Source: Kineosporia mesophila
GTDB taxonomy: Bacteria > Actinomycetota > Actinomycetes > Actinomycetales > Kineosporiaceae
NCBI RefSeq assembly: GCF_021129235.1
Contig: NZ_JAJOMA010000019.1
Span: forward strand, 1 to 64,000
Length of the DNA stretch: 64,000 bases
Direction: 5' to 3'
A model generated the notes under the pieces. That model was not told where the DNA came from and did no database searches. It saw only the letters and a program-made list of their open reading frames with translations. Shown piece by piece: positions 32,420 through 64,000 of this stretch. Made by a program: the position numbers and the translations under genes. The first letter of the stretch is position 1. Each line of letters starts with the position of its first letter.

Positions 32420-32421
32420 TG

Positions 32422-39739: not shown

Positions 39740-42262
39740 TTGGTCCACGCTGCCGAAACCTCCCTGAAAGTGCTGCTGGAAGGCACCAAGCAGTATCTGG
39801 TGCCCCTCTACCAGCGCACCTACTCCTGGTCGCGTCAGCAGCACGTTCGCCTCTGGGAAGACGTGCTCAAGCTGGCGGAAGACCGCTCCGTCGATCACCA
39901 GACCACCCATTTCATCGGTTCCCTGGTCCTGGCTCCCGCCGCCGCGAACGGCCCGGCCGGGGTGCAGCAGTTCCTCGTGGTCGACGGTCAGCAGCGCCTC
40001 ACCACGCTGAGCCTGCTGCTGTGCGCCATCCGCGACCATCGGGGCGAGTCCGAGGGCGCGAACCACCGCGAGCGCCTGAACGAGCAATATCTGATCAATA
40101 AGTGGGAGAAGGAATCGCTGCGCTCGAAGCTCCTGCCCACTCAGGTTGACCGGGCCTCGTACCAGTCATGTCTGGAGAGCACCCCGCATGCGGGAGCCGG
40201 CGATCCGATCGGCAAGGCGTACAACTACTTCCGGTCCCAGTTGCGTCAGCCGGACGAGGCCGGGAACCCGATCGACCTGGCCGCCGTGGAAGACGCGGTC
40301 ATCCAGGGACTGTCGCTGGTGTGCGTGACCGCGCAGGCCGGGGACAACGTCCATCGGATTTTCGAGTCGCTCAACAACACCGGGCTGCAACTCACCCAGG
40401 GCGACCTGCTGCGCAACTACCTCTTCATGCGGCTGCCCTCACGCGGTGACAAGGTCTACAGCAACCTGTGGCTGCCTCTTCAGAAGACGCTGAGCAGCGA
40501 CGAGCTCGAGACGCTCTTCTGGCTCGACCTGGTGCGTGACGACGCGCGGGTCAAGCGCACCGACACCTACAACCGCCAGCAGGTGCGTCTGAACCGTCTG
40601 TCCGGTGAGGACGCGATCGAGGCCGCGGTGAAGCGCTTCGCCCGGCTCGGAACCCTCTTCGCGGTGATTCTCCATCCCGAGCAGGAGACCGACGCCGATG
40701 TTCGGCGAGGACTGCAGCGGCTCTACTCGTGGGACACGACCACGGTGTACCCCTTGCTCCTGCACCTGCTCGACCAGCGGGACACCGGAGCCGCGGACAG
40801 CGCAACGGTGGCCCGCACGCTGACGATCATCGAGTCCTTTCTGGTGCGCCGGCTTCTGATGGGCCGGGCCACCAACAACGTCAATCGGGTGCTTCTGGGC
40901 GCGGTCGCCGAGCTGCGGGCGAACCGCCCCCTCGACGAAGCCGTACGCGACTATCTCTCCACCGGCCGGAAGTACTACGCGACCGATCGTGAGCTCCTCG
41001 AAGGCATCGAGCACCAGTCGTTCTACTTCAACGGTGCGCCCCATCAGCGGGCACTGGTGCTGCGCTGGCTCGAGGAGCACCTCGGCTCGAAGGAGCCGGT
41101 CAACCTCTCCAATCTCACCATCGAACATGTCCTGCCGCAGACCCTGACCGCGTTCTGGGAGCAAGCGCTGAGCACCGGTCTAGAGGCCGACGAAACAGTC
41201 GAGGACGTACACAGCCAGGTTCTGCACACCCTGGGAAACCTGACGCTGACCGGTTACAACTCCGAGCTGAGCAACGGGCCGTTCGACAAGAAGCGGACGG
41301 TTCTTGCGACCTCCGGTGTCCGCATGAACCAGGAGATCGCGGAGAACGAGGTCTGGGGTCGTGCCCAGATCCTCGCCCGGGCAGCTGTGCTCGCGCAGCG
41401 GGCGGTTTCCATCTGGCCCGGTCCGAGCTCGCAATCTCCCTCGGGCGCTTCCGAGCTGTGGCAGTTGCTCGACTCGGCACTCACCGAGCTGCCCGCGGGT
41501 TCCTGGACCACGTACGGCGACCTCGCCGCGCTCATCGGAACCCACCCCGTCCCCCTCGGCATGCGCTTGAGTACTCATCCCGCGCCCAACGCCCATCGAG
41601 TGCTGCAGGCCGGCGGAACGGTGTCGCCGGGTTTCCGGTGGCCGAACCCCGATCGGGACGACGATCCCCTGCAGATTCTCCGCTCCGAGGGCGTGACCAT
41701 TGATGACGCGGGTCGCGCCGATCCCGGACAGCGCGTCACGGTGGAAGAGCTCGCCGAGCTCGTCGGTCTGTCCACCGACGGCTTGCAGGTGCTGCCTGAC
41801 CTGGCTCCCGGCCAGGACCGTGCCCGGCGCGACCGGTTCCTCGGCCAGCTCACCACCGCGAACGACATCAGCGTTGTGAACGGAGTGCTCAGGCTCCTCG
41901 ACCGATGGACGGCCGATGGTGGCGAGCTGGTGTACGGGAACAACGCACAGACGTCGTGCTTCCCCGTCGTCCGAACTCCGCTCAACAGGGAGAACGCGCC
42001 ATGGCCCGTCGCCATCTACCCGGCGGGCAAGGTCGAGGTGGTGTTCAAGCACATGGCCTCCCGCCCGCCGTTCAACGACCTGGCGATGCGCGAAGAATTC
42101 CGGCTTCGCCTCAACGCGATCGACGGAATCGATCTGTCGGCCAGCAAGATTCAGCTGCGGCCGTCGTTCCCGCTCGATGTTCTGAGCGATGAGAAGGCAG
42201 TGGAGCAGCTTGCTGATGCCTTCTCATGGTTCTTGCAGGTGACCTGGCAGGCAAACTCCTGA
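39740..42262 (+). CDS. GmrSD-type (DUF262-DUF1524) protein fused to an ATL/MGMT-like domain
   Basis: An 840-residue protein. The DUF262 (GmrS/ParB-like) domain has VPLYQRTYSW, HFIGSLV, and the nucleotide-binding DGQQRLTTL with FESLNNTGLQL. DUF1524 (GmrD HNH-like) has NLTIEHVLPQ and LGNLTLTGYNSELSN. Residues about 590-670 are related to alkyltransferase-like flippase (ATL/MGMT C-terminal) domains: SWTTYGDLAALIGTHPVPLG and HRVLQAGG. ATL domains flip modified bases without methyl transfer. GmrSD enzymes cut glucosylated hydroxymethylcytosine phage DNA, so this fusion may sense bulky base modifications. TTG start with AGGGAG upstream. Confidence 0.85.
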   Translation: MVHAAETSLKVLLEGTKQYLVPLYQRTYSWSRQQHVRLWEDVLKLAEDRSVDHQTTHFIGSLVLAPAAANGPAGVQQFLVVDGQQRLTTLSLLLCAIRDHRGESEGANHRERLNEQYLINKWEKESLRSKLLPTQVDRASYQSCLESTPHAGAGDPIGKAYNYFRSQLRQPDEAGNPIDLAAVEDAVIQGLSLVCVTAQAGDNVHRIFESLNNTGLQLTQGDLLRNYLFMRLPSRGDKVYSNLWLPLQKTLSSDELETLFWLDLVRDDARVKRTDTYNRQQVRLNRLSGEDAIEAAVKRFARLGTLFAVILHPEQETDADVRRGLQRLYSWDTTTVYPLLLHLLDQRDTGAADSATVARTLTIIESFLVRRLLMGRATNNVNRVLLGAVAELRANRPLDEAVRDYLSTGRKYYATDRELLEGIEHQSFYFNGAPHQRALVLRWLEEHLGSKEPVNLSNLTIEHVLPQTLTAFWEQALSTGLEADETVEDVHSQVLHTLGNLTLTGYNSELSNGPFDKKRTVLATSGVRMNQEIAENEVWGRAQILARAAVLAQRAVSIWPGPSSQSPSGASELWQLLDSALTELPAGSWTTYGDLAALIGTHPVPLGMRLSTHPAPNAHRVLQAGGTVSPGFRWPNPDRDDDPLQILRSEGVTIDDAGRADPGQRVTVEELAELVGLSTDGLQVLPDLAPGQDRARRDRFLGQLTTANDISVVNGVLRLLDRWTADGGELVYGNNAQTSCFPVVRTPLNRENAPWPVAIYPAGKVEVVFKHMASRPPFNDLAMREEFRLRLNAIDGIDLSASKIQLRPSFPLDVLSDEKAVEQLADAFSWFLQVTWQANS

Positions 42263-44395: not shown

Positions 44396-46582
44396 TCAAC
44401 CGGCGCGCTGCCCCTCCTGCAACGCCCGATACCGACTGCGAAGGGCATCAAGCGTCTCACCGCTCTCCGTGACCTGCCAGAATGTCCATCCGTTCTCTGA
44501 TTTCACGTTCCTGACGTCGATCGCGGCATGATTCGGGGACTCGAAACACCCCCCGGTCTCGGTGCGGATGCGCCCGTCGCCCAGCAAAGTACCCCTGTAT
44601 TGTCGGCGGCGGCGCTCCCCTGTCAGCCGCTCATCGGGCATCACCAGACCTGCCCGCAAGAGATCTGCCAGCTTCACCCGCTTGCCTCCCACCTGTCTGG
44701 GTGACGGCACGGGGTCAGCCACGGATGGGAGCTTCAGGCCGAGTTCGGCTGCTGACCAGGCTTGTTCAGCCATCTCACGGTATAGAGCGCCACGTTCACG
44801 GATGAGATCAGCCAAGCGGACCTGGGGATCGTAGGGGTGGAACCTGTCTTTCCAACCGTACTTGTTCAAGAACTTGTTGAAGGCGACCTTCCCGTGTCCG
44901 GTATAGACGCTGGGAGCCAGCGACGCAGCCAGCCAGTTGTAGAGCTTGTAGGTCTCGATCTTGTTGTCAAGCAGGTCTCCGCCGAAGCTGGCGTTTTCCG
45001 AGCCGGGCAGAAGTACCAGGCCGCCGACCTTTCCGCGGAGTTGTCGGATCTCGTTCTTGGACAGTCCTTCTGCAGCGTAGGCATCGGTTCTTTTGGTGAA
45101 CAGGTGCTCGATCTCGTACGGTCGGCCCTCATCGGGGCGCTCCAGGTACTTCTGCACATCGACGTCATGGCCGATCTCCCGATGCATCCAGCCTGTCAGC
45201 CGGGCCAGGAAGTAAGCGACGAACGAACGGTTGCTGCCCTCTTTGTACTGCAACTCTGCGACTGAGGAGAAGGCAGCATACTTCCCGACTGCTGCCCGCC
45301 CGAGCACATCACTGAGACCATCGATGGTGTGCGATTCACGCACCGCCGGCATCAGGTCTCTGACCTCCTCATCAAGCTCGGCCTGCGTGTATGGACGCCC
45401 CATGACCCCCTGGGTGACGACGAAGAGGTCGATGTAGTTGGCCACGAGCCGGGCCTTACGCAGAACAGTCGGTGGCGAGTCATCGATACGAACGGCAGCG
45501 ATGACCAGGTCGAACTGTCTCGACAGACCGTTGTACTCGTTGAACCAGACAGTCGAAAGGTGCTCATCGAGGGTCGTCGCGGCCCGCAAGAGGTTGGTGT
45601 ACGAGTCGTAGCGGGGCTCCAGCCATTGGGTGAAAAGCTCCGTGTGGCTAGCTCTTCTGCTACCGAGCAAAATAGCCCGATGCCGGTACAGCCATTCGTG
45701 CGGCGCGTCTTCGATGGAGCGCACCGACTCGTCCACGGGCACGAGATGCGCGTACTGGGAACGGAGAACGGTGCGTACGTAGTCGAGAGGCGCGTTCTTG
45801 TCCACGGCGGTGAGGGCCCTGACCATACCCTGCCATTGCCGATCCAGCTTGCCCGAATCATCGGGTGCGCCTGCCAGCAGATAGTCTTTGAGCAGATCGA
45901 GGGCTGTGAGCCGAACGCCTCGATCATTCATCAGAACGTACAGTTCTTGTCCGCGTTCGGGGCCGCCGGCGTCGATTTCCACCAGGGAGACCCGCCGCAG
46001 AAGCCATACGCCGAAGTAGATCAGAGCATCTTCTTGAATCGCGTCGCGGCAGGCCTTGAGCACTTCGTTCGAGGCCTCCCACACCCTGCGCACGTCAGCG
46101 CTGACCCCGTCGACGCTGAATCGCTGGTTGTTCAGGAGACTCTCAAAGCACCGCTCGTAGTCCTCGACGCGCACGGCGAAGCTACGACCCATAGAGGTGT
46201 CACCCCGGATCAGGGTGCGTAACTCGGCGTTGAGGTCGGGTCCGTCTTCGCGGTGCTCGGTCAATCGGTGAAGGCCGATGAGGAGCAGGAGCAGCGTGAT
46301 CATGCGCTGCTGGCCGTCGGCCAGGTAGCGTTGACCGTCTTCTTGATAGGTGATGACCGATCCCAGAAAGTACGGTTCGTAGTTCCGCACCTTGGCCTCG
46401 GTGTGCGACGGATCCCACTGGGCGTTGAACTTAGCCGACAGGTCTTGGACCAGGCGTTCGACCTGCGGCCGTTCCCAGGCGTAGCTCCGCTGAAAATATC
46501 CAACGCCATAGGATTTTCCGCTGAAGACCTTCTCGACCGATATTCCGGTCGCCGACACCAACGGCGTCGTCCTCGCTGCCAT
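44396..46582 (-). CDS. GmrSD-type DUF262-DUF1524 protein with RAMA-like C-terminus
   Basis: A 728-residue protein. The DUF262 domain has YFQRSYAWERPQVERL, YFLGSVITYQ and DGQQRMITLLLLL; LMNDRGVRLTALDLLKDYLL corresponds to the FesLN block. DUF1524 has YEIEHLFTKR and GKVGGLVLLPGSENASFGG. The last 90 residues (KLADLLRAGLVMPDERL, GGCFESPNHAAIDV, NGWTFWQV) match the RAMA domain, which is found in restriction systems and probably reads modified DNA. With the gene upstream it forms a two-gene operon. Sequence similarity to the 39.7-kb GmrSD is low, so they are not recent duplicates. Confidence 0.85.
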   Translation of the reverse strand: MAARTTPLVSATGISVEKVFSGKSYGVGYFQRSYAWERPQVERLVQDLSAKFNAQWDPSHTEAKVRNYEPYFLGSVITYQEDGQRYLADGQQRMITLLLLLIGLHRLTEHREDGPDLNAELRTLIRGDTSMGRSFAVRVEDYERCFESLLNNQRFSVDGVSADVRRVWEASNEVLKACRDAIQEDALIYFGVWLLRRVSLVEIDAGGPERGQELYVLMNDRGVRLTALDLLKDYLLAGAPDDSGKLDRQWQGMVRALTAVDKNAPLDYVRTVLRSQYAHLVPVDESVRSIEDAPHEWLYRHRAILLGSRRASHTELFTQWLEPRYDSYTNLLRAATTLDEHLSTVWFNEYNGLSRQFDLVIAAVRIDDSPPTVLRKARLVANYIDLFVVTQGVMGRPYTQAELDEEVRDLMPAVRESHTIDGLSDVLGRAAVGKYAAFSSVAELQYKEGSNRSFVAYFLARLTGWMHREIGHDVDVQKYLERPDEGRPYEIEHLFTKRTDAYAAEGLSKNEIRQLRGKVGGLVLLPGSENASFGGDLLDNKIETYKLYNWLAASLAPSVYTGHGKVAFNKFLNKYGWKDRFHPYDPQVRLADLIRERGALYREMAEQAWSAAELGLKLPSVADPVPSPRQVGGKRVKLADLLRAGLVMPDERLTGERRRRQYRGTLLGDGRIRTETGGCFESPNHAAIDVRNVKSENGWTFWQVTESGETLDALRSRYRALQEGQRAG

Positions 46583-51295: not shown

Positions 51296-52567
51296 TCACG
51301 GTTCTCGAAACGCCGGATGCGTGGCCTGGTTTTCGGCCTCCCGTTGCAGGTCTTCCAGACGCCGGGCCGATTCCTGCCAGGGGCTGCGTTCGAGTGCCTG
51401 CCAGCCGTGCAGGATGGGGCCGAACGCGGGAGGCGGGTCCGGCATGCTCCGGGTCAGAGCCGCCATCGCCCCAGCATCTGCTGAACCTGGGCCTTGGGTT
51501 CCGGGCTGGTCCGGGGTACCGCGGTGGCGCCGGAACCAGTCCTCGCTGGACCAAATGTCGTTCACCGAACTGACCACGCTGGCCAGCGCCTCCCACAGCT
51601 CGCCCCAGCGCAGCTCGTGTGCTTCAGTGGCGGAGCGGGCCGGGCCCAGGACGGCCTGAAGCGTCTGTTCGGAACGTAAGCGTTCTTCGTCCGCCGCAGC
51701 CTGGCTTTCGGCATGTACGTTGTGGTGAGCGACCTTCACTCCGATCGCCAGTACCGTGATCATCGTGAAGAGCCAGATCAAGGCGTCGGAGGAGATGTAA
51801 GACGCACCTGGTGAAGTGCCGCCGGCCAGGACAGCTTCGTCGTTCGCGGCGGCACTGATGAAGGATTCCCGGGCCGACGCGATCAGGAAGACCGTGAAGA
51901 ACAGGGCCGCAGTGAAAATGCCGGGAACGATCCATTCGACCTTGGGGATGGTGTCCGCATCTGCCCAGCCCTGACGACCTTCGCGCCATCGCGCCACTGA
52001 CTCGCCCAGCCATACGCCCGTGGTAATCAGCGCGGCGACCAGCACGGCCCCCGGCAGGTAGGCCAGCGGAAGCTGCCACTTCCCCGCTGCCGTGCTGGCA
52101 TCGATATCGAAGACAGTGGCGAAAACAGTCCCGATGAACCAGGTGTCGAAGACCGCGATCAGGACCACGACGATGTCGATCGGCAGCCACCGAGGCCAGG
52201 CATGGCGGCGGCGACGGTTGTAAGCCCCATCACCGGCGTAACGCCGCTCCGTCTCCTCGGCCTTCTCGACCGCGATCCGCACCTGCTGAGTGCGCAGAAA
52301 CCAAGCCAGGTCGGAGAGGGTAGCGCCGGCTCTTGTCTTGGCCTCGACCAGCGCCCGCGTCTGGTTCTGCAGGTCAGCACGCGCCTTGGCGACGATCTCG
52401 GCGCTGTCCCGGCGGGCCAGGATCTGGGCGGTTCCGAGGACATCGCCCTCCGTCTCCCGGCTCAGGTGGTCGTTCAGAGAGAGGCAGACGCATGCTTCCT
52501 GAACCCCGCACAGAGGTGACGCAGCGCAGTTCGGAGTCAGGCGCGGTTCCAGCGAGAACTGTTCCAT
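51296..52567 (-). CDS. Four-helix membrane protein, last gene of the cyclase operon
   Basis: A 423-residue protein. The N-terminus is Cys-rich (CAASPLCGVQEACVC), a possible metal-binding knuckle. A long helix (residues 50-115, coiled-coil-like) leads to four transmembrane segments at about 140-165, 175-200, 225-245 and 275-295. A cytoplasmic helical tail follows. It begins one base after the VWA-OmpA stop. The pairing of a multi-helix membrane protein with a peptidoglycan-binding OmpA partner recalls MotA/MotB and ZorA/ZorB topologically, but no MotA motif is visible. Confidence 0.6.
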   Translation of the reverse strand: MEQFSLEPRLTPNCAASPLCGVQEACVCLSLNDHLSRETEGDVLGTAQILARRDSAEIVAKARADLQNQTRALVEAKTRAGATLSDLAWFLRTQQVRIAVEKAEETERRYAGDGAYNRRRRHAWPRWLPIDIVVVLIAVFDTWFIGTVFATVFDIDASTAAGKWQLPLAYLPGAVLVAALITTGVWLGESVARWREGRQGWADADTIPKVEWIVPGIFTAALFFTVFLIASARESFISAAANDEAVLAGGTSPGASYISSDALIWLFTMITVLAIGVKVAHHNVHAESQAAADEERLRSEQTLQAVLGPARSATEAHELRWGELWEALASVVSSVNDIWSSEDWFRRHRGTPDQPGTQGPGSADAGAMAALTRSMPDPPPAFGPILHGWQALERSPWQESARRLEDLQREAENQATHPAFREP

Positions 52568-52568
52568 G

Positions 52569-53822
52569 TCAACGTCCCCCCTGCGGCTGGCCGAAGGTGA
52601 TGACCACTTCGACCCGGCGATTGCACGCCTGGCGGGCGGCAAGCTCTTCCTTGGGTGCGTCCTTCTCCAGGCATTCGGGGTCGGGTTCGGTCTCCCCGGC
52701 ACCCCTGATCCGGGTCGCTGGGTAGCCCTGATCCTTCAGGTAGGCAGACACCGATTGGGCTCTGGCCTGAGAGAGAAGTTCGTTGCTGCGCGGCGTTCCC
52801 CGGGAGTCCGTGTGCCCGGTGACCTCGGCCACGGTTCCATCGACTTCGCGCAGGTCGCTGAGCACCTGCCCCAGGGCGTCCTCGGCGGTGGGGCCGAGTT
52901 CGCTGGAACCGGTGAGGAACAGCATCCGATCGTTCAGACTGACCGTGCTAGTGCTTCCCGTCTCGGTCCTGGCGATCTGGGGCAGGGCAACATCGACATC
53001 CGTTGGTGTCGATGGCGGGCGTTCGGCCTGGAAGGACACCTTGTCCTGATCCGTCGCCACCTCCACGCTGCGCGCGCCGGCCGCCGTGAGCAGGCCCTTC
53101 CAGAATTCGATCAGCCACTGCCGGTCCCCGTCCCGGACCACACTCGACTGACCGGCCGGAAGGCCCAGACCCACCAGAAGAACACTGAAACCGTCCAGCT
53201 CCGGAAGCTCCTGCGTAGCCTGGCACCGTGCGGCCACGGTGGCCGGACTTTCGGCCCGGCTGAGCAGGTTGAGGTCAACGCATCCGGTATTGGACAGGCC
53301 GTCGCTGGACAGGATGATCTTCGGGCTGACCCCCGACGCCGTCGTGGAGGCCCAGGCCAGGGCGCCAAGGACGTCGGAGTTCGCCGCCTTGGCCGCGGTC
53401 TGTGCAGATGCCCAGTGCCGCAGGCACTTCAATGCCTCGGCCCGTGCATGGATACGGTTGTTATTGTTGCCGACGACGGCAGTAACCGCCCGATCGGCCT
53501 CGAGTACGGTCGCTGAGGCATCGAAGCCCGCGACCCAGACGGTCCTGCCTTCCATAACGGCACTACGCAGCATCGGATCCACCGCCTTCGCATAGACGGC
53601 ACTGGTCTGGGCCGAGGCACTCCGGTCGATCAGCACGACCGTCTGCCCGGACTCCTGGCTGCCTTGTACGCTCCCGCCCGGATCGGAACACTCTGCGGTC
53701 GCTCCAGACTGTCCGGACGCCGTTTCGGTGGTCTCAGGGCTGCGCCCCAAGGAAATGGCTGTCCAGACCATCGCCATCGCCACGGCGGCCACCACAGCGA
53801 ACCTCAAGGCTTTATTCATCAT
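52569..53822 (-). CDS. VWA-like domain protein with C-terminal OmpA domain
   Basis: A 417-residue exported or membrane-anchored protein. An N-terminal hydrophobic helix (residues 5-27) is followed by a VWA fold: VVLIDRSASAQ supplies the MIDAS DxSxS, and IILSSDGLSNTG a later metal ligand. The C-terminal 110 residues are an OmpA domain (EVTGHTDSRGTPRSNELLSQ, then IRGAGETEPDP and ACNRRVEVVI) that binds peptidoglycan. Its stop precedes the membrane protein start by one base, and its start overlaps the preceding gene by four bases. It probably anchors the system to the cell wall. Confidence 0.8.
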   Translation of the reverse strand: MMNKALRFAVVAAVAMAMVWTAISLGRSPETTETASGQSGATAECSDPGGSVQGSQESGQTVVLIDRSASAQTSAVYAKAVDPMLRSAVMEGRTVWVAGFDASATVLEADRAVTAVVGNNNNRIHARAEALKCLRHWASAQTAAKAANSDVLGALAWASTTASGVSPKIILSSDGLSNTGCVDLNLLSRAESPATVAARCQATQELPELDGFSVLLVGLGLPAGQSSVVRDGDRQWLIEFWKGLLTAAGARSVEVATDQDKVSFQAERPPSTPTDVDVALPQIARTETGSTSTVSLNDRMLFLTGSSELGPTAEDALGQVLSDLREVDGTVAEVTGHTDSRGTPRSNELLSQARAQSVSAYLKDQGYPATRIRGAGETEPDPECLEKDAPKEELAARQACNRRVEVVITFGQPQGGR

Positions 53823-54751
53823 CGCTCACTGCCGTTCCCACTGACCTCGGGCAACGGCGGGACGGGAAGACCGGCCCACGCCATCAGACTTCGCAACGCG
53901 GAGTCGTAGGTCACGTCGTACTCAAGCAGGTTCACGCTGTCCAGACCGTTAACGGCTCCGGTGACAGCCTCCAGAAGGCGTTCGTCACGCTGGTCCCGGT
54001 CCTGGGCCAGTAGGTCGACGACTTCCGCTGCTTTGTGGGGTGATTGGGTGGCCAAGCGGATCAGGTGACGGGCGATGAACGGTGGCGGCGTGTCCATAGC
54101 GGCCAGCTCCTCCTCCGTGCCAATGCCCACATGCTTGAGCAGATCTCGCCAGTTGGTGGTGAGCTCCTTCAGATCCGACACCATCACCAGAGCCAGTTTC
54201 TGCTCGGCGTTCCAGCTCAGGCGATGCGTCCAGCCCTGCTGCTGGATCTGACGGACGTCTTCGTGCGGCGTCACCTCGGCCCGGATGCTCCAGTGCAGGT
54301 CGGTGCCGCTCGGTTGCTTCTGCGCAGTGATCTCGGCAAGTCTGCGGTTCAGCGCCGACTCCGCCTCCGCCGCGGCATCCGGCGGGAAGGTGCGGAGAAT
54401 ACAGCGAACCGCAACCGCAATGTCCTCCCACACCTCCCCTTTGAAACGGTCGACGTCCCTGGCAATGGTCGGACCGTCCCAGGTACCACCCGTCCAGATC
54501 CAGCGCAGCCGAACACTGAAGTCGTAGGCGTCGCCGCGGGAGGGAGAGGAAAAGCTGAGAGCGGGCGAGCGCGGCACATGCCGCTGGGGCTGGGGCGGCA
54601 ACTTCGGCGAGCGGAACCAGGTGCGCACCCGCGTCCACCAGCCCGGCCGCTGCCACTCCTGCGGCTCCACGGGCGCCATCGGCTCAGGATTGAGGACGCG
54701 TCCGGTCACCGGGGTTTCATCGGCCGGACGGTTCGGGGAAGCTTCGGTCAT
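53819..54751 (-). CDS. Unrecognised protein in the cyclase operon
   Basis: A 310-residue protein from ATG 54751, overlapping the NTPase stop by four bases. The first 70 residues are Pro/Arg-rich with two tryptophan clusters (EWQRPGWWTRVRTWF). The core (residues 80-240) is a mixed alpha/beta domain with a SPHKAAEVVDLLAQDRDQRD segment. No family is recognised, and no transmembrane helix is present. Its position between the NTPase and VWA-OmpA suggests an adaptor linking cytoplasmic and membrane components. Confidence 0.65.
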   Translation of the reverse strand: MTEASPNRPADETPVTGRVLNPEPMAPVEPQEWQRPGWWTRVRTWFRSPKLPPQPQRHVPRSPALSFSSPSRGDAYDFSVRLRWIWTGGTWDGPTIARDVDRFKGEVWEDIAVAVRCILRTFPPDAAAEAESALNRRLAEITAQKQPSGTDLHWSIRAEVTPHEDVRQIQQQGWTHRLSWNAEQKLALVMVSDLKELTTNWRDLLKHVGIGTEEELAAMDTPPPFIARHLIRLATQSPHKAAEVVDLLAQDRDQRDERLLEAVTGAVNGLDSVNLLEYDVTYDSALRSLMAWAGLPVPPLPEVSGNGSER

Positions 54752-57192
54752 CGTCGTGATCCTCTCGGTCCTAGTTCCTGGTCCAAAAGCTCTTGGGCAT
54801 GCGGGAAGTCCAATACCCAGGTGTCCCGCCAGAGGCGTTCGTGAAACTTCAGGTGCTCCCGGCAGCCGCGGTCCTGCTGCAGACTGCGCAGCACGCTGCG
54901 GCAGGCCCGATCCAGCAAGGGGTCCTGATCGGAATCCTTGATCCAGTCCGCCAGCAGGTTCAGCGCGAACCGCACGACCCGCTGGTCCCTGATCGCCATC
55001 CGCCAGAGCACCAGGACATGCCGGCGCATCTGTACATCGGTGTCGAACTGGCGCAGCAGTTGCCCCCGGGTCCCGGAAGCCTCCTCGTCCCCGAGGAACA
55101 ACAGGATGAGGACGAGGTGGCCAGGCAATTGGCTCTGCACGACCAGGCGCTCCGAACCGCGCAGTCGCCGGATCGTCCGGACCGACCGCTCGTGCTCCTC
55201 GATCCACTCCTTGAGAAGGTCGTTGACACGATCGGTCAGGTTCAGCTCGTAGATCCGGCAGACCACGCTGGCAACCAGCGCGTACCCGTAGTCCTTCTGG
55301 AACCGGGAGCGATTGACGAGCTCCAGGGCGTCGTCGACGTGCTCGATGTCCAATGCGTAGGCATAGACCGTCAGGGCGGCCAGGCGGCGCGGCAGCCCCC
55401 AGTTGCGCGCCCAGTCCTGCAGGCGTTCCCAGGTCCGCGGTGCGGTCGTGCTGTCCTGGAGCATCAGGTCCATCGCCAGGGCGGTGGCGCGACGACCGGA
55501 GATGCTGCCGCTCTTGGCCCAGGTCTCGACCACCGCCATGATCTGCTCGAAGTCGTAGACGGCCAGACGTCCCACGGCTTGAGCTGCTCTGATCCGAACC
55601 TCCAGCGGAGCAGCGACACGGTCACGTCGCACCACCGCGGTTTCCAGCAGCCACGACAGCACGGCGCTGGAGGCCAGATGGTGCTCGGTCCAGACCACTT
55701 CAAGGACGACGTCGGGCACCGTCGGATTCCTGAACCACATGGGCCGGCGCTCAGAGGTCACTCCCGAGATTCGTCCGTCTGTCTCTGGTTCCTCCTGCAT
55801 GGCCTCGATGCCGGACAAGAGCTGCGGACTTGTCTGACTGAAGGGGGCCGGAACAGAGCGTTGACTTGTGTCCTCCGCCGCCAGAGTAGCTGTGCCGCCG
55901 CGGATCACCCGGGTCAGGGCCGAGGTCTGGTCCAGAACGGTCCGCAGCGGTAGCCCGTTGAAGATCCCGGCCGAGAGCAGGAAACAGCGATGGAAAAGCA
56001 GGAGATCCTCGTTCCTGCTCTCGACTGATGAGCCGGGTTCCTCGTCGGCGCCGGACAATGACTCGTTACGAGTCTGCGGAGTGAGCAGCCTTGCTCGCAC
56101 CCATTGCCGGACCGACGACCGGAGATACGTCTCCGGCTTCTCCCCGTAGGCCACCGCCGCGGCTATCGCTGCGGCGGTAACCGCAACCTGCTCCATGGTG
56201 GCGGAGCCGATCGTCGCCAACGTTTCCTTGGGCAGCATCCTGAGCAGGTAGTCGTCCGTCGGCGGTTGGAACTGACCTTCGGGGGAGACGACGAACCTGG
56301 CCCGGGGGCCGTCGAACTGCAGCCCCAAGCGGTGGCGACGGACGAGTAGCTGGGTGAGAACCGTCAACGGCTTGGGCTTGCGATGCCGCACGAAGCCTGC
56401 AGCCGGAACCTGGACCAGCCGCTCGCCGGGCTCCTCGTCCACCACCAACACCACTCGGGTGGATGGGTCGGACTCCAGCAAGCCGTCCACCCACTCCACC
56501 ACGGCGCGCAGTCCCCGGCGCGCTACCGCTTCCGAAGCTTCCAGCACGAATCCTTCAGCCGAGGAGAAGTCATCCTTCGTCAGCCGAGCAATCGGCACAC
56601 CGCTGTCGAAGCGCGCCAGCGCCGCGTCCAGTGGAAGCAGATTGTGCAGCGCGCAAAGTGCCAGTGCGGTCCGGCCCGAGCCCACGGGCCCCACGAGTAC
56701 GCAGACCCTTGCCGAGAGTGCCTGCACCAGTAGGGTCAGGGACGATTTTCCGTGGTCCGGCCAGGGCACGAACGACTTTGCCAATTCCAGAATCGATTCG
56801 CTGGCGATCAACGAAGCATGGCTGCCGGCCCGGTCCCGCGCCGTGATGATGACGTTGCCGTTGACCGTGCCGAAGGCGGGCGAGCCGTCACCCATCGTCG
56901 TGGTGCCGTGGTTGTCCTGGCTACGTCGGTTCCCGGCCGCCGACGCCGAGAAGTTGCGCCTTCCTTCATCCCGCGCCCGCCGGTCCCGGCGCGACTGCTG
57001 CGGGTTGAATTCCTCTCCCCCGTCAGCATCGCCCCATTGATCCGACGATTCCGGCTTCGGCGCTCTCGACGATTCGGCGCCTTGGGAGGGCGCTTCGGCG
57101 CCGGGCACTGCCAGCGCGCTTCCGCTGCTGGGTGTGGTGACGTCACGGGCCGGAGCCGGGTCTTGCCTATCTGGCAGGGCTTCATTACTCAT
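54748..57192 (-). CDS. Large P-loop NTPase (STAND-like) with GDGSPAFG motif
   Basis: An 814-residue protein. Residues 1-85 are disordered. Residues about 90-118 carry GTTTMGDGSPAFGTVNGNVI, nearly the same as the C-terminus of the upstream cyclase. Walker A is GPVGSGRT near residue 163, and Walker B is VVLVVDEEPG near residue 245. From about residue 330 the protein is all-helical, resembling the superstructure-forming half of STAND signalling NTPases. The start overlaps the cyclase stop by four bases. By inference it is the oligomerising switch of the system. Confidence 0.75.
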   Translation of the reverse strand: MSNEALPDRQDPAPARDVTTPSSGSALAVPGAEAPSQGAESSRAPKPESSDQWGDADGGEEFNPQQSRRDRRARDEGRRNFSASAAGNRRSQDNHGTTTMGDGSPAFGTVNGNVIITARDRAGSHASLIASESILELAKSFVPWPDHGKSSLTLLVQALSARVCVLVGPVGSGRTALALCALHNLLPLDAALARFDSGVPIARLTKDDFSSAEGFVLEASEAVARRGLRAVVEWVDGLLESDPSTRVVLVVDEEPGERLVQVPAAGFVRHRKPKPLTVLTQLLVRRHRLGLQFDGPRARFVVSPEGQFQPPTDDYLLRMLPKETLATIGSATMEQVAVTAAAIAAAVAYGEKPETYLRSSVRQWVRARLLTPQTRNESLSGADEEPGSSVESRNEDLLLFHRCFLLSAGIFNGLPLRTVLDQTSALTRVIRGGTATLAAEDTSQRSVPAPFSQTSPQLLSGIEAMQEEPETDGRISGVTSERRPMWFRNPTVPDVVLEVVWTEHHLASSAVLSWLLETAVVRRDRVAAPLEVRIRAAQAVGRLAVYDFEQIMAVVETWAKSGSISGRRATALAMDLMLQDSTTAPRTWERLQDWARNWGLPRRLAALTVYAYALDIEHVDDALELVNRSRFQKDYGYALVASVVCRIYELNLTDRVNDLLKEWIEEHERSVRTIRRLRGSERLVVQSQLPGHLVLILLFLGDEEASGTRGQLLRQFDTDVQMRRHVLVLWRMAIRDQRVVRFALNLLADWIKDSDQDPLLDRACRSVLRSLQQDRGCREHLKFHERLWRDTWVLDFPHAQELLDQELGPRGSRR

Positions 57193-57965
57193 GACCCGCC
57201 GCCGAAACTGACTTTGCCTGTCACCTGACCGAAGGCCGGACTCCCGTCGCCCATCGAGGTCGTCCCGGAGTTATTGTTAGACACTCGCGCCTCAGGCGTC
57301 TCAGCCTTCTCCACCGTTTCGGGTGTCGCGACGGCGTCCGGATCAGCTGCGCCAGAGACCCCAGAAGCTTTCGGAGCCAACCGGATCCAGGCCGGGAATG
57401 GCGTGCTGCGGTCGTCATGCTGGACGCTGATGGGCTCGAACTGATCCGGCTGCAGCCCTCGAACGCGCTCCTCAACGGTCGCCTGGTAAACCGAGTCGCT
57501 GATCGTCACAGTCAGGACCTGGTGCGGGTGGGACCGAATCTGGCCGGAAGCCGCCGCACAGTTCAGCATCCGGACCAGCTTGATGATCGCATCGCCCTGC
57601 CACGGAAAGGGCTCGCGCCGAACGTATCCCTCGTGGACGGCCATTCTCACACGCAGCCTGCTGCTGGGTTCCCGACGGCGGTTGAACGGCTCCAACGCAG
57701 TGAGCAGTTCTCGGGGCAGATCAGCCACCAGCCGGGCCGGCTCCAGCGGATCCGCGAACAATACGTGCAATCCGTCGCCACGGTCGGCGATGTCCGACTG
57801 GATCGGGCGGAGATCGGCACGCTCGCACGCCTCGCGAAACGTCTGCAGCAGCCCTTGCTGAAGGTCCTGGTGATCGTCCATCGGGCGTTTGCCCGACGGA
57901 CGGTCCCGGCCGCTGAAATCCACGATGTCCAGGGCCGTCATGAGTGCGTGTTCCGGCGTTGCCAT
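57189..57965 (-). CDS. Class III nucleotide-cyclase-like protein with C-terminal GDGSPAFG motif
   Basis: A 258-residue protein from ATG 57965, preceded by GGGAGGAG. The cyclase core is recognisable: LDIVDFSGRD provides the first metal-binding Asp, DRGDGLHVLF the second, and RVRMAVHEGYV with GDAIIKLVRMLN the region that normally contains the transition-state Asn and Arg. The Asn position appears to be Ile, while an Arg is kept, so activity is uncertain. After residue 190 a linker leads to GTTSMGDGSPAFGQVTGKVS at the extreme C-terminus. It probably makes, or once made, a cyclic nucleotide for the adjacent CRP-like protein. Confidence 0.75.
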   Translation of the reverse strand: MATPEHALMTALDIVDFSGRDRPSGKRPMDDHQDLQQGLLQTFREACERADLRPIQSDIADRGDGLHVLFADPLEPARLVADLPRELLTALEPFNRRREPSSRLRVRMAVHEGYVRREPFPWQGDAIIKLVRMLNCAAASGQIRSHPHQVLTVTISDSVYQATVEERVRGLQPDQFEPISVQHDDRSTPFPAWIRLAPKASGVSGAADPDAVATPETVEKAETPEARVSNNNSGTTSMGDGSPAFGQVTGKVSFGGGS

Positions 57966-58061
57966 CAAGGCTCCTCCCGAGTAGTGGTGGTTGAGCCTCA
58001 CTTGCACCCGATCGGACGCACCACACACTTCTGGGGGATTGGCCCGTTCGCCCCGTTTCGT

Positions 58062-58742
58062 TCAGGGATTGCAGTGCGCCTGGAGGCGCGTCTCGTCGAA
58101 GATCACGATCCTCCGGTAGCGGGTGCCGAGGATTGCCGACTCCCGCAGCTCCTTCAGGAAGGCCTGCACCGAGGTCAGCGCGCACTCGGCCGCAGCAGCC
58201 AGTTCCTCCTGGGTCAAACTGAACGCGATTTCGATTCCGTGATCGGTGGGATTCCCGTGGGTTCGGACGAACTCGGAGAGCACCATCGCCACCCGCCCAT
58301 TGGCGGTATGCCCGGCAAAGTCGATTCGCTTGCGCGTCTCGACTCTCAAGCGGTCATTCGTGACCCCGTAGATCGCAGTGAATCCTTCATCAGAGGACCG
58401 CAGGTATTGGCGCCAGACCTGGGCACTGATCACTCGTGCACTCACCGCACCACAGGCCATGACAGTCGCGGTTCGGGGGCGACCGTCGACAGCAGCCATT
58501 TCGCCGACGATGTCGCCACCCAATCGCAATGCAAGCAACACACTTTGACCGCGAATCGTAATTGCGCTCACCTTGACAATTCCAGTCAGCAGGATGAAGA
58601 CGTCTGTTCCGCCGTCCCCCTCCAGGATCAGCCGGTCTCCTTCGGTGAACTGAACAGCGCGACCCAGAGTAATGATCCGGTCGAGACTTTCCGGCTTCAA
58701 CCGCCCCAGAAAGCTCCCCGGATGCCACTCCTCGTGTTCCAT
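58062..58742 (-). CDS. CRP/FNR-family cyclic-nucleotide-binding regulator
   Basis: A 226-residue regulator from ATG 58742 with AGGGGG upstream. The cNMP-binding domain spans residues 15-130; its phosphate-binding cassette is GEMAAVDGRPRTATV, keeping the Glu and Arg that bind cyclic nucleotide phosphate and ribose. The C-terminal winged helix (residues 150-220) has FSLTQEELAAAAECALTSVQ as helix-turn-helix. It lies about 97 bases upstream of the cyclase-like gene on the same strand and is the likely sensor and transcriptional regulator of the operon. Confidence 0.9.
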   Translation of the reverse strand: MEHEEWHPGSFLGRLKPESLDRIITLGRAVQFTEGDRLILEGDGGTDVFILLTGIVKVSAITIRGQSVLLALRLGGDIVGEMAAVDGRPRTATVMACGAVSARVISAQVWRQYLRSSDEGFTAIYGVTNDRLRVETRKRIDFAGHTANGRVAMVLSEFVRTHGNPTDHGIEIAFSLTQEELAAAAECALTSVQAFLKELRESAILGTRYRRIVIFDETRLQAHCNP

Positions 58743-59248: not shown

Positions 59249-61453
59249 TCACCGGCTCCTGATCTGCGCCCGGCCGGTCGGCACCACCTGGAAGCTTCTG
59301 AGGCGCAGGTGATCAGCGAACTCCCGCTGGCTGGAACGCAGCCCGTGCACCAGCATGGTCTGCCGGGGGCCGACCTCCGTGACGATCTGGCCCAGGCCCT
59401 TGCGGTCGGCGTGCGCCGACAAAGCAAACTTAGCCACGTTGGCGCGCACGTCGATGCGCTGCCCACCCAGGTCGAAAGTGGCCGAGTTCTGCTCGGCCAG
59501 CCTGATCAGTTCAGCGCCAGCCGACTCAGCGTCCTGGTACCCGGAGATCAGCAGGGCTGAGCGGGGGTCGGGCAGAATCCACTCCGCCCAGGTCGCGGCC
59601 GGTGAACCGGGAGCCATCATGCCGGAGGTGGCGACGATGACACCGCGGCGCATAGACGCATTCAGCTCGCGACGCTCGCGGGGGGCAACTTCCTGGACGC
59701 CGTCGCCGAAGATGGTCAGGGGATTGTCGCGTCCTACGGTCTGCTGTTCGTAGATCCGTGACACCGAGCGGGCCAGACCGTCGACCAGGATCGGCATCCC
59801 CGGGAACGCGGTGCGTAGGGTAAGGACCACCTCCTGGGCGCGTCCGAGCGCGAACGCTGGGACCAGCACCCGTCCGTCCCCGTTGACCGTGTCGTAGACG
59901 GTGGCGAGGAAGCGCTCGACCTCGAGGGTTCGAGGGCGACCGCCCGGGCGGCAGTAGGTGGACTCGATCAGCAGCAGGTCGCAGCCGCGGGCGGACGCGG
60001 GAATGCTGATCCCGCCAACCGATGCCTGATCCTGGGACGGGTGCGAGACGTCGCCGGTTATGGTGACCCGGGAGGGCCCTGCGGTGACGACCACCCCGGC
60101 CGCGCCGAGGATGTGGCCGGCCGGGAAGAGTTCCGCGCTCACCCCGTCGGTGATTTCCACGACCCGTCCGACGGGTGTCACTTCCAAGCGCTGAACTGCG
60201 GCCTTGACCTGCGCCGACCGGTAAGGGGCGACCTCGTTGAGGGCATCAGCGTCGCCCCGGCGCAGGGCGTCGGTGATCGTGCGCTCGAAGACCTTGACCG
60301 AGTCGTTCCACATCGTCGGCAGGAGCGCAGCGGTCTCGGCGGTGCACAGGATCCTCAGGTGCGGGTACTGGGCAACCAGTGCGGGGACGTAGCCGGCATG
60401 ATCGTTGTGCGCGTGAGTAATGACGACGGCATCGAGGTGTTCGTGGAGGGCAGCCTCGAGGTGGGGCGGCGCGCATCGTGACAGTGGTTGCCCAGGGCGG
60501 CTGCCGCAGTCCACGAGCAGCCTGGCCTGACCGGCCTCGACCAGGATGCAGGAACCGCCGATCTCGGTTCCACCGCCGAGCGGAGTGACCGTGACCTCCC
60601 GTTCATGGGTATCCAGGAGGAGCGGCGCGGTGACCGGAGGGCTCGCGATCGCCTCCACGATCCCAAGGAACTCGGAGATCCCGATTCCCGCCGCCTTAAG
60701 GGCGAGAAGAACCGGTTCCGGAAGGTTTTCGGTGACCTTCGGGTGATCGGCGGTCACCAGCTCCTCAGTGACGGTGGCCATGCGATCCTGCTCGCGCAGA
60801 TCGGTCTCCGGTGCGGGGCCCACCGCCGATCGCAGAGCACCCACCAGAGTCTCGGCCGCCCGGCTGGGATCGTTGTGCAACGTCTGCCAGCGTTCCCGCT
60901 CGGCCACAAGTTCTGTTCTGAGTCCTTCTGATTCGGTTGTAGCCTCGTCGAGATCCTGGGCCAACGAGGTGTGCCGACGTCGCCAGTCGGCGATCTCCTT
61001 GCGGGCATTGTCCAGCCGGCCGTTAGCCTCGTCGCGCTTGGCCCGCATCAGCGCGTTGTCACGACGCAGGCGCACGATGGTTTTCTCCGTCGCCGCGTCG
61101 CCGCGATCAGCAGAGGACGCTTCACCTGATGGGGTGGGGGAAGTTGCCTGATGACGGGGCAGGAGCGCAGAACGATCCTCACCCAGAATGCCTGCGGCCC
61201 GATCCGACGTCGCGGCGTCCGCGTCGAGCAGCTCCTCGAGCAAGCGGTGAGCCGTCGCTACCGCGCCGAACCTGGTAGCCAGGGAAACCCGCACGTCGTG
61301 GCTTCCGGCCACCAGGCGCAGCAGGTTACGTCGGTTTTCCTGGACGAAGGCTTTCCGGTCGACCCGACGGTCACGGTTGGCCTCCGTGTTCAGGACGATG
61401 TCGGCCACCGCCGCGATGATGTCAGTCAGCACCTGACCCGGGGTGGAGGTCAT
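59249..61453 (-). CDS. Metallo-beta-lactamase/beta-CASP nuclease with coiled-coil N-terminus
   Basis: A 734-residue protein. Residues 1-240 are helical, with a strong coiled coil at about 120-200 (KTIVRLRRDNALMRAKRDEA). The MBL domain has motif 2 THAHNDHAG (HxHxDH), motif 3 AGHILG and motif 4 TGDVSH. Beta-CASP motifs are DLLLIESTY (A), VPAFALGRAQE (B region) and ALSAHADRKG (C). All metal ligands are present. Relatives are CPSF73/RNase J-type RNA or DNA nucleases, but the large N-terminal coiled coil is unusual. The start overlaps the ATPase stop (ATGA), so the two are co-translated and probably act together. Confidence 0.85.
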   Translation of the reverse strand: MTSTPGQVLTDIIAAVADIVLNTEANRDRRVDRKAFVQENRRNLLRLVAGSHDVRVSLATRFGAVATAHRLLEELLDADAATSDRAAGILGEDRSALLPRHQATSPTPSGEASSADRGDAATEKTIVRLRRDNALMRAKRDEANGRLDNARKEIADWRRRHTSLAQDLDEATTESEGLRTELVAERERWQTLHNDPSRAAETLVGALRSAVGPAPETDLREQDRMATVTEELVTADHPKVTENLPEPVLLALKAAGIGISEFLGIVEAIASPPVTAPLLLDTHEREVTVTPLGGGTEIGGSCILVEAGQARLLVDCGSRPGQPLSRCAPPHLEAALHEHLDAVVITHAHNDHAGYVPALVAQYPHLRILCTAETAALLPTMWNDSVKVFERTITDALRRGDADALNEVAPYRSAQVKAAVQRLEVTPVGRVVEITDGVSAELFPAGHILGAAGVVVTAGPSRVTITGDVSHPSQDQASVGGISIPASARGCDLLLIESTYCRPGGRPRTLEVERFLATVYDTVNGDGRVLVPAFALGRAQEVVLTLRTAFPGMPILVDGLARSVSRIYEQQTVGRDNPLTIFGDGVQEVAPRERRELNASMRRGVIVATSGMMAPGSPAATWAEWILPDPRSALLISGYQDAESAGAELIRLAEQNSATFDLGGQRIDVRANVAKFALSAHADRKGLGQIVTEVGPRQTMLVHGLRSSQREFADHLRLRSFQVVPTGRAQIRSR

Positions 61454-64000
61454 CTCTGAGCGGCGATCTGGTCCAGCCGCAGCTGCCCGTCACCGTTCGC
61501 CACCAGTACTCCAAGGGCCCGGAACACATCGATCAGCGATGCCAGGTCCGGGTAACCGGCCGCTTGGTACGACGATACGGAAAGAGCATGACCGTCGGGA
61601 TCCCGGACCATTTCCTCGAGGATCTCCACGAGAGTCCCTTGATCAGCAGCGTCATTCGGGCCAAGAACACCGAGGAGCACATTCCACGAGGCGGCGACCA
61701 CCACGTCCGCCTCGACCCCCAAGGACTGCCGGAAGCGTTGCCCGTTGGCCGGCACGGCAAGCCAGTCACGCAGGTCGCTCAGCGGATCGGGGCCCGAGGT
61801 CGCCGACTCGGCAACCCGATTGAGCAGCATCGGCCAGCCACCCGTGACGCTGAGCAATTCGTCACGCGACGCATCGTCCTGGAAGGGCAGCGAGGTCTCG
61901 TTCAGCCACAGCCGAAGTCCGGTGTTCTCATAGCGGTGCAGCGAGGTCACCGACGACGAGGCATCGGACTCCCGCATCGCTTTCGACCACAGAGGTGCCT
62001 GCTGCGGCCCGGCGATCAGAATGATGCCCAGCGTGCCGCCTGACCGCTCCCGGATCGCCTCCCGCGCACTCGTCCATACCTCTTCGGCCGCAGCCGGAGT
62101 CGTCTCGCGCAGGTCGCACATGATCAGTGCGTGGCGCCCTGCGGCCCACATGCTAGCCGCAGAGCTGGTGGCCACCAGCGCCGAGGTGCTCACGTCGTCC
62201 CGCAGCTTGATCCGATCGCCGTAGACCGCGTTGTCGTTCTCGTCCCGCAGCACCCGGACGCAGCGTTCCAGGGTCAGCGCCTCCGAGCCGATGATCAGCC
62301 GCACTTGGTTGCGGGGCCGCAGGAGGTCGGCGATCTGCGCAGATGTCAGCGGTCCTCGGGTGAGGGTGTCGGCGTACCGAGGTCGCAGCAACGTTCCGTC
62401 GAAGCTGTCCGGCAGCGGGAAGGACGCGGCGTTATCGAGCACGGAGCTCACTTCTTCGCCGGTGCCCAGTAGCGTCAGGATGTTCGGGGTACGCAGCCGG
62501 TACTGCCCGGTGGCCGATGTGGAAAGGACTCCTAAGTCGACACATTCGTCCAGCAGGGCGCGGAACTCACCGGTCAGCACGTCCTCGGAGGCGAAGCCCT
62601 GCGGCCACCACTGCTCGCAGTCGCTGCGCAGTTCAGTGGCCGAGAGTGCGGAACCGATACCCTCGTCATAGGCGTGGAACGCCACCGCATAGGCGATCGT
62701 CTTGTACCGGTGGTCGAGGTTCAGTGTCCAGTCGAAGCGCTTGCGAATGGCCTCCCGAAGGACTCGGTCCGACCAGATCTCCTCCACGTCGTCAGCGGTG
62801 ACCAACTGGGGCAGCCTGAGCGACACCGGGCGCCGCTGCAGGTGGGTCAGCATCCGGGCACCGAAGAGCTGGATCAGCGAAGGCTGGTTATTGGTCAGGG
62901 CCAGCACCCGGGCCGCCACGTTGTCGTTCGCGAACCGGTAGCCCAGCGCACCCAGCGGCTGAGTGAGCAAGTCGAAGGCCTTCTGCGAGTTGAGCGGCCC
63001 AACGCAGACAGGGCTGCCGAAGTGTGCCAGGGGGTGGTTGGCCAGCCGCTCGAACCGGGCGGTCTGGTGCAGGCCGGCGAACACAACCTTGACGGCTCGT
63101 TCCGTGTTGTCCATCAGCCTGCGGAACGCGTCCACATGCGTGAACCGCCCCTTCGCGTCGGCATCCAGGAACAGGTCGGACTCGTCGAGCAGCAACAGCA
63201 GCTGACGGCCAGGTTCGGCCTGGATCCAGCGGGTGATGCCGTCGATCACCGCGTGCGCCACGTCGCCGCCGGGCTGCTCGCCCTGCACGATGGCCTTGGC
63301 CACCAGTTGCGGCCACAGAGTGGGCCAGATCCGGTCCGCCCCGATCGCGCCCTGCCCGATCTGGTAGATCGACAGATAGGCGGCCCTGCGATGGTGGTCG
63401 TCCTCGAACTCACGGGCTGCCGCCCGCAGCAACGCGGATTTGCCCAGTTGCCGACCGCCGTAGACGAAGCAGGGGCCGTCCATACTCATGACGTCGCCCA
63501 GCTCTTTCTCACGACCGTAGAACATCTCGACGGCGACGCCGCCGGCCACATCCGGGGTGAACGGTTCCGACATCGTGAACGGCAGGAGGATCTCCATCGT
63601 GGTGTCCAGCCGCGGTGTCGGCTGCGCAGCCAGGTAGGCGAAGGCCGCCTCGTCGACCACGATCGTGGCCGGGAGCCGGGAATGTGAACGCATCAGACCG
63701 GCCAGCTCACGCCGCTGTTCGGGGCTCAGCACACCGAAATAGAGCACCAGAACCGCGTGCTCAGCAGGCTCCGGGCGCAGCAACTGGATCAGCTGACCCG
63801 GCGTCGGCGACTTCCACACCTGGAGCACCCGCAGTGTGTCACCGGCAGGACTGATCTTCGAGCCGAAGGCCGGGATCAGTGCTTCCCCCTCAGTACTGCG
63901 CACGCCGATCAGATGCATCCAGTGACTGGCTCCGGGCTTTTGACCCGAACGACCTCGCGGGGTGTTCTGGTCGGAGAAGATGAAGCCGATCTGCTCGAGC
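61450..64000 (-). CDS. AAA/STAND-type ATPase paired with beta-CASP nuclease (5' end outside window)
   Basis: At least 849 residues; the frame is open to the window edge, so ATG at 63918 is probably not the true start (upstream residues read LEQIGFIFSDQNTPRG). Walker A is GGRQLGKSALL, Walker B is LLLLLDESDLFLD, and KVVFAGLHQTARF and CVGPLNSQKAFDLLTQPLG are the sensor and lid features of the ORC/AAA_16-STAND group. A winged-helix-like region and a large C-terminal helical part follow. It is translationally coupled to the nuclease and likely controls it by NTP-driven assembly. Confidence 0.8.
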   Translation of the reverse strand, partial: LEQIGFIFSDQNTPRGRSGQKPGASHWMHLIGVRSTEGEALIPAFGSKISPAGDTLRVLQVWKSPTPGQLIQLLRPEPAEHAVLVLYFGVLSPEQRRELAGLMRSHSRLPATIVVDEAAFAYLAAQPTPRLDTTMEILLPFTMSEPFTPDVAGGVAVEMFYGREKELGDVMSMDGPCFVYGGRQLGKSALLRAAAREFEDDHHRRAAYLSIYQIGQGAIGADRIWPTLWPQLVAKAIVQGEQPGGDVAHAVIDGITRWIQAEPGRQLLLLLDESDLFLDADAKGRFTHVDAFRRLMDNTERAVKVVFAGLHQTARFERLANHPLAHFGSPVCVGPLNSQKAFDLLTQPLGALGYRFANDNVAARVLALTNNQPSLIQLFGARMLTHLQRRPVSLRLPQLVTADDVEEIWSDRVLREAIRKRFDWTLNLDHRYKTIAYAVAFHAYDEGIGSALSATELRSDCEQWWPQGFASEDVLTGEFRALLDECVDLGVLSTSATGQYRLRTPNILTLLGTGEEVSSVLDNAASFPLPDSFDGTLLRPRYADTLTRGPLTSAQIADLLRPRNQVRLIIGSEALTLERCVRVLRDENDNAVYGDRIKLRDDVSTSALVATSSAASMWAAGRHALIMCDLRETTPAAAEEVWTSAREAIRERSGGTLGIILIAGPQQAPLWSKAMRESDASSSVTSLHRYENTGLRLWLNETSLPFQDDASRDELLSVTGGWPMLLNRVAESATSGPDPLSDLRDWLAVPANGQRFRQSLGVEADVVVAASWNVLLGVLGPNDAADQGTLVEILEEMVRDPDGHALSVSSYQAAGYPDLASLIDVFRALGVLVANGDGQLRLDQIAAQR

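Follow-up and report, generated by a model that had tools for sequence, protein, structure and literature searches.

A conserved gene cluster of filamentous bacteria that combines cyclic-nucleotide and envelope genes and encodes a matching motif in two neighbouring proteins

CBASS systems are defined by a CD-NTase, and Zorya consists of a MotA-like ZorA together with ZorB and either ZorC and ZorD or ZorE. Pycsar was reportedly described by Tal et al. in 2021, and the BASS amyloid NLR signalosomes, whose receptor is of the NLR type with an NB-ARC or NACHT domain, are said to have been described by Dyrka et al. in 2020. Here we analyse a locus that recalls each of these systems, located in a window of 64,000 nucleotides (the whole stretch of DNA studied) from Kineosporia mesophila. 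Six genes at 51296-58742 on the minus strand, together with a seventh adjoining gene, form a genuine system that is conserved in filamentous bacteria and in which parts for cyclic-nucleotide signalling are combined with wall and membrane parts as a first-pass annotation of the sequence had proposed. In filamentous bacteria, adjacent genes can encode BASS amyloid pairs with one motif at the C-terminal tail of the partner and the other at the N-terminus of the NLR, according to the available portion of PMC7889193. The VMAP/iSTAND ternary systems (Kaur et al. 2020, PMC7159879) are related, and the part of that source at hand describes no matching gene set.

All six genes are present as first placed. 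The first-pass annotation had overlooked a PycTM-like gene on the plus strand and a paired motif shared by two of the encoded proteins. The parts of the locus are as follows.

58062..58742, minus strand: CRP-family transcription factor with a cyclic mononucleotide (cNMP)-binding domain (cNMP_binding, PF00027, 1.3e-16) and a helix-turn-helix (HTH_Crp_2, PF13545, 6.8e-09)
57189..57965, minus strand: class III cyclase-like enzyme, predicted from fold matches and the retained metal-binding Asp and Arg
57210..57287, minus strand: putative C-tail motif of the cyclase, RVSNNNSGTTSMGDGSPAFGQVTGKV, recognised by its local score with the N-terminus of its own NTPase
54748..57192, minus strand: P-loop and C-terminal helical-repeat protein (degenerate NTPase, NLR-like), assigned from its Walker A and from repeat-protein matches
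56851..56928, minus strand: putative N-terminal motif of the NTPase, RRSQDNHGTTTMGDGSPAFGTVNGNV, partner of the cyclase tail by motif comparison
53819..54751, minus strand: SPFH/band-7 (prohibitin-like) protein, predicted from Foldseek matches
52569..53822, minus strand: VWA-OmpA protein (OmpA domain by Pfam, 5.8e-15) with a transmembrane (TM) or signal segment at its N-terminus
51296..52567, minus strand: membrane protein with three to four TM segments by hydropathy ("4TM"), of no known family, 28% identical to the gene of Streptomyces locus L005
50711..51277, plus strand: small membrane protein resembling PycTM, its gene convergent with that of 4TM (PADLOC PycTM 4.8e-06; 33% identical to the L005 gene)

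The joints between the six genes had been given as ATGA overlaps or near-zero gaps. This is correct for the cyclase/NTPase, NTPase/SPFH and SPFH/VWA-OmpA joints, each a four-nucleotide ATGA overlap, and for the single nucleotide between VWA-OmpA and 4TM. However, the CRP and cyclase genes lie 96 nucleotides apart, and a search for convincing inverted repeats that might be CRP operators found none. The seven genes of the window each pair one to one with a gene of L005, at 24-41% identity, and the cluster is therefore more than a chance arrangement.

The locus shares with Pycsar a class III cyclase-like enzyme with a pair of metal-binding Asp residues, a nearby PycTM-like gene and a cNMP-binding protein. 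However, it adds the NTPase, SPFH, VWA-OmpA and 4TM proteins, a CRP transcription factor and the motif pairing, and its PycTM-like gene lies on the opposite strand, five genes past the cyclase. We rejected identity with Pycsar, as no PycC model matched any of five cyclases (window, L005, L006, L065 and L101) at E<=1. With Zorya it has in common an OmpA-domain protein beside a protein with several TM segments, and VWA-OmpA matches a ZorB model (1.7e-08) through its OmpA part. In contrast to Zorya, 4TM has no ZorA match, a VWA domain is present, and eight of ten VWA-OmpA members carry a lipobox pattern (the window copy and that of L020 do not). Zorya was rejected as well, since the OmpA part alone matches and none of the nine proteins scanned matches ZorC, ZorD or ZorE; CBASS was rejected on the absence of a CD-NTase from the PADLOC matches of the same nine. 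The VMAP/iSTAND ternary conflict systems are, in the portion of PMC7159879 at hand, likewise actinobacterial, with cNMP cyclases, OmpA wall domains, Band 7 and in some cases a CRP-like factor, but neither MoxR nor VMAP is among the Pfam matches of nine scanned proteins. The earlier view that the cluster is not Pycsar, CBASS or Zorya thus agrees with our results, and no described system matched it in the resources searched. Among the matches listed by searches of one literature library, no paper reports this gene set in its title or the start of its abstract.

Conservation was assessed with several queries. The window NTPase alone was too insensitive: among 98 relatives it matched the window's own genome and no other, and among 396 genomes of the phylum it matched three (its own included). 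A family profile was needed. Scanning genome contigs for VWA-OmpA returned 14 loci, nine of which contain the system; the other five (L019 and L021-L024) match the query in its OmpA part alone (residues 334-408 or 289-408) and were rejected as system loci. These nine, with L065, L069, L073, L101 and the window, make up 14 loci carrying both VWA-OmpA and 4TM, where L005 and L013 (Streptomyces thermodiastaticus) are counted once and L009 (genome G712) is taken as the same locus as L012 on the basis of equal scores for both genes. The order NTPase, SPFH, VWA-OmpA, 4TM is kept in all 14, so the genes do stay together across actinobacteria, as had been anticipated. L101 is from the window's own genus and has neighbours that differ from those of the window. 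Full-length VWA-OmpA matches occur in two of six genomes of this genus, and strong 4TM matches in two of 249 Streptomycetaceae, where one further 4TM match is weak and partial (E=1.6e-4). L102-L105 (three regions of genome G007 and one of G002) have VWA-OmpA labels and lack the other core labels, and were not counted; L103 also has an XRE label, and L102 and L103 end at contig ends.

By the genes that accompany the core, the loci fall into two subtypes. Ten of the 14 loci have the cyclase; nine of these carry a CRP label (not L069; in L101 the gene is divergent) and eight a PycTM label, with PycTM spread across three overlapping frames in L011. In the other four loci, from Glycomyces, Sphaerisporangium, Mangrovihabitans and Herbidospora, XRE and SARP-type genes replace the cyclase, and no CRP or PycTM label was found in any of the four. 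The regulators of L016, the SARP-type locus examined by Pfam, match HTH plus DUF5753 in one case and Trans_reg_C plus BTAD in the other. The best reading of this distribution is a constant envelope/NTPase module that feeds a swappable output.

A wider family became visible with an NTPase profile built from 11 members, which at E<=1e-10 matched 52 of 394 genomes of the class and 21 of 138 genera; from its 58 match rows, 40 new stretches were retrieved. Within 6 kb of the NTPase in 51 loci (L101 was added later and is excluded), the labels comprise 40 cyclases, 37 CRP, 35 SPFH, 25 PycTM, 13 VWA-OmpA, 13 4TM and seven M48 proteases. The Streptomyces loci L006, L007 and L055-L060 contain a related operon of CRP, cyclase, NTPase and SPFH genes, to which PycTM and an M48 protease gene are often added. 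In L006, L007, L055-L057 and L060 the stretch around the module includes both rpoC and rpsL; L058 has the rpsL side alone and L059 rpoC alone, and both contigs end there. Searches of viral contigs and plasmids with the NTPase revealed no relatives.

The cyclase and the NTPase carry matching short tags that, from their sequences, look like plug and socket. In the window, RVSNNNSGTTSMGDGSPAFGQVTGKV from the cyclase tail and RRSQDNHGTTTMGDGSPAFGTVNGNV from the NTPase N-terminus are almost identical, and the tail has a local score of 92 with the N-terminus of its own NTPase, against 65 for the best of 31 other NTPases. The motif, often rich in Gly, Asn and Asp, varies between loci yet agrees within a locus. 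From 52 loci we took the 51 with an NTPase label (all except L087), of which 41 have a CYC or SARP partner in range (L059, L067, L068, L070, L075, L076, L077, L083, L088 and L091 have no labelled one), and removal of nine redundant loci left 32. The tail ranked its own NTPase first in 21 of these, with a mean rank of 2.25; ties were scored as first, as in L079, and L007 led by one point. The summed score of own pairs was 1905, compared with a permutation mean of 977, and none of 10,000 permutations reached it. Adding L101, which scores 96 with its own NTPase and at most 47 with others, gives a first rank in 21 of 33 loci. In a first test on ten loci, eight tails beat all 500 of 500 shuffles. 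Among the SARP tails only that of L016 is clear, those of L079, L017 and L018 being tied, second and third, respectively. Controls with the cyclase body (7286 of 10,000 permutations) and with SPFH (1283 of 10,000; 20 loci) were flat. In pairs scoring at least 50, 119 of 314 identical residues differ in codon (0.38, where about 0.5 would be expected if independent), and the window pair uses different codons at ten of 17 identical residues. Such divergence at silent sites indicates that the match is maintained mainly at the protein level and speaks against a recent DNA duplication.

This arrangement is that of the BASS pairs, in which the cognate motif likewise lies at the partner C-tail and the receptor N-terminus; the ranks and permutations above demonstrate the feature here. 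Adjacent or overlapping genes, an NLR-like receptor and filamentous actinobacterial hosts are also shared, in so far as the available parts of PMC7889193, PMC8086366 and PMC12261475 describe them. In those parts, however, the partners are Bell, CHAT or TIR, whereas here they are a cyclase or a SARP factor. The receptor also differs in its degenerate P-loop, and Pfam finds no NB-ARC or NACHT domain in the window NTPase, only a weak AAA-like match (AAA_22, E=0.072).

The Walker A of this NTPase is GPVGSGRT, with Arg replacing Lys. Among 51 family members Arg occupies the position in 36 (window included), Lys in 11 and neither of these in four, and Walker B is poorly conserved across the family. 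The C-terminal half resembles designed, artificial helical-repeat proteins (6.8e-06 with the family profile). The large protein announced as a STAND-like NTPase is therefore a P-loop protein, but we rejected its classification as a standard STAND protein on these three features.

The cyclic-nucleotide sensor was correctly named. Its pocket motif is GEMAAVDGRPRTATV, it is 41% identical to its L005 counterpart, and its cNMP-binding part matches PADLOC PycTIR (1.2e-15) and one PycC-labelled model (5.6e-08). A class III cyclase-like gene is present as well, although it had no match in Pfam, NCBIfam or PADLOC, and nine scanned homologues had no cyclase-family Pfam match either. A profile comparison matches it weakly to the solved cyclase Ma1120 (E=0.011). 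Class III cyclases are the top Foldseek matches (best E 6.5e-04) of a low-confidence model with a mean predicted local distance difference test (pLDDT) of 44, and an Anabaena uridylate cyclase stands at rank 23 of that list. Of 36 labelled family members, counting redundant ones, all 36 retain both metal-binding Asp residues and 35 retain the Arg. These proteins may constitute a subfamily of class III cyclases missed here by Pfam and PADLOC.

The protein first called an unknown adaptor is present, and its predicted fold recasts it as SPFH/prohibitin-like. Its top Foldseek matches are prohibitin, HflK/C, vault, QmcA and stomatin, with a best E of 3.7e-04, one match at E<=0.001 and low TM-scores, from a model (mean pLDDT 61) whose confident core spans only residues ~70-170. 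Pfam gives no Band_7 match for the window protein. The VWA-OmpA gene is as first described. Its product contains the stretches DRSAS, SDG, GHTDS and NRRVE, which are kept as DxS, DG, GHTDS and NRRVE (conserved residues D, S and G and those of NRRVE), along with several Cys. Of the four helices ascribed to the last protein, four TM segments are predicted in the window copy but three in eight of eight homologues checked. It belongs to no family at E<=1 in Pfam, NCBIfam or PADLOC (zero PADLOC families). Homologues of 4TM, for example L017:11085 (plus strand), have a Cys-rich N-terminus such as CPSGCVCGVRELV or CHHGCGCDIR that is kept among aligned homologues. The window PycTM-like protein has no Pfam match at E<=1, and its relative in L006 matches PF18967 at 2.1e-17, above the cut-off. 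PycTM is a pore-forming receptor according to the accessible part of PMC11224242.

We tentatively read the cluster as an envelope-surveillance signalling system in which a sensor acts through the NTPase on a cyclase or SARP output, a reading that we place a little short of an even chance. The NTPase/helical-repeat protein would be informed of a change in wall or membrane, caused by phage entry or envelope damage, by VWA-OmpA, which would bind the wall outside the membrane, together with the 3-4 TM protein and an SPFH scaffold in the cytoplasm. The N-terminal motif of the NTPase might then bind or nucleate the matching motif of the cyclase tail, a contact suggested by the sequence pairing and modelled on the NLR-effector amyloid pairs of BASS. 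The cyclase, judging from its retained metal-binding Asp, would produce a cyclic mononucleotide to be read by the neighbouring CRP and probably also by the PycTM-like membrane protein. The same NTPase-SPFH-VWA-OmpA-4TM core would probably act on a SARP-type transcription factor in the second subtype. The first-pass annotation had the signal run from a nucleotide to a wall response. Since the loci share the envelope genes while their output genes are exchanged as a block, the opposite direction is likelier, from the envelope through the NTPase to the cyclase or SARP protein and on to CRP and PycTM. A stronger form of this proposal is doubtful. It envisages a signalosome, serving as an immune or envelope alarm, with VWA-OmpA/SPFH as wall-anchored sensor and an NLR-like protein that templates a locus-specific motif in a prion-like manner and so activates a cyclase or, in the sister subtype, a transcription factor; the portions of the literature examined contain no description of such a signalosome. 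If the envelope-surveillance reading is right, the system would unite cyclic-nucleotide second messengers and motif-templated NLR assemblies, usually treated apart, with a wall sensor attached, and the swappable outputs and locus-specific motifs would open partner specificity to swap tests. Several observations weigh against envelope surveillance through paired motifs. The own NTPase is not first in 11 of 32 loci, the worst being L092 at rank 23, the SARP tails of L017 and L018 were reached by 27 and 23 of 500 shuffles in the ten-locus test, and pairing the tail with the NTPase C-terminus as a control gives a slightly raised score (157 of 10,000 permutations reach it). PycTM is unlabelled in L065 and L101 and scores weakly in L069 (22 bits) and L073 (33 bits). 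Part of the cyclase family keeps the Asn of the usual N-x3-R motif, but the window cyclase and many members lack it, and the SPFH-like and cyclase structure models are weak. Five Streptomyces loci are closely related, so the 14 loci are not 14 independent events. The sequences show the gene order, the exchange of outputs and the motif pairing; signal direction, motif contact, product and effect are inferred, and amyloid formation and the ligands of CRP and PycTM are hypothetical.

The failures in 11 loci and in two SARP tails would also fit a motif that is a mere linker or docking repeat of biased composition, as would its frequent Gly/Asn/Asp richness and its variability. However, permutation among loci preserves composition and still never reached the observed sum, and the cyclase body gave a flat result; of the explanations weighed here we find this one the hardest to credit. 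The others concern the purpose of the system. The first-pass annotation had allowed for a signal from an invader, and a defence role is plausible, but it is not the sole option. In abortive infection, the NTPase would sense phage inside the cell, the cyclase would make a messenger, and PycTM with the membrane proteins would bring about cell death or arrest. Type I restriction-modification (RM) genes, two GmrSD-type genes and DUF6119 make the window a defence island (neighbours were scored at the window only), which favours defence, as do the PycTM-like gene and the patchy spread of VWA-OmpA and 4TM. Against it, PycTM is unlabelled in the SARP subtype, and in Streptomyces relatives of the core occupy a core-genome place, between rpoC and rpsL; we regard abortive infection as somewhat unlikely. 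That place favours instead a housekeeping or developmental envelope regulator in which cyclic nucleotide and CRP tune expression without killing. The CRP, cyclase, NTPase, SPFH and frequent PycTM and M48 protease genes of the Streptomyces relative, the transcription-factor gene in the cyclase's place in the SARP subtype and the OmpA part of VWA-OmpA agree with such a role. The patchiness of the VWA-OmpA variant and the defence-island setting of the window do not, and we consider it improbable.

The genes around the cluster were also recorded. At 59249-63918 on the minus strand, an MBL/beta-CASP nuclease-like gene and a gene for a large AAA/nSTAND-like ATPase overlap by four nucleotides. The MBL/beta-CASP gene matches arCOG00543 (2.7e-54) and a type VII Cas14 model (1.8e-53), both under the cut-off. 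These upstream genes were considered as members of the system and left out because their profiles occur near the NTPase in only one of 51 loci, the window itself; the pair looks like a separate two-gene unit. On the other side, GmrSD-type genes are located at 44396-46582 (minus strand; GmrSD_N fused to a RAMA domain) and 39740-42262 (plus strand), and the DUF6119 protein (1.9e-92) is encoded amid the defence genes at 36570-38261 (plus strand). The type I RM genes (helicase-like R, specificity and N6 methylase parts) span 28025-36385 on the minus strand and surround a stretch at 32-34 kb in which the GC content drops to 0.52. Beyond them, at 26382-27986 on the minus strand, is a gene for a Ser/Thr kinase with weak TPR matches and strong matches to PADLOC kinase models.

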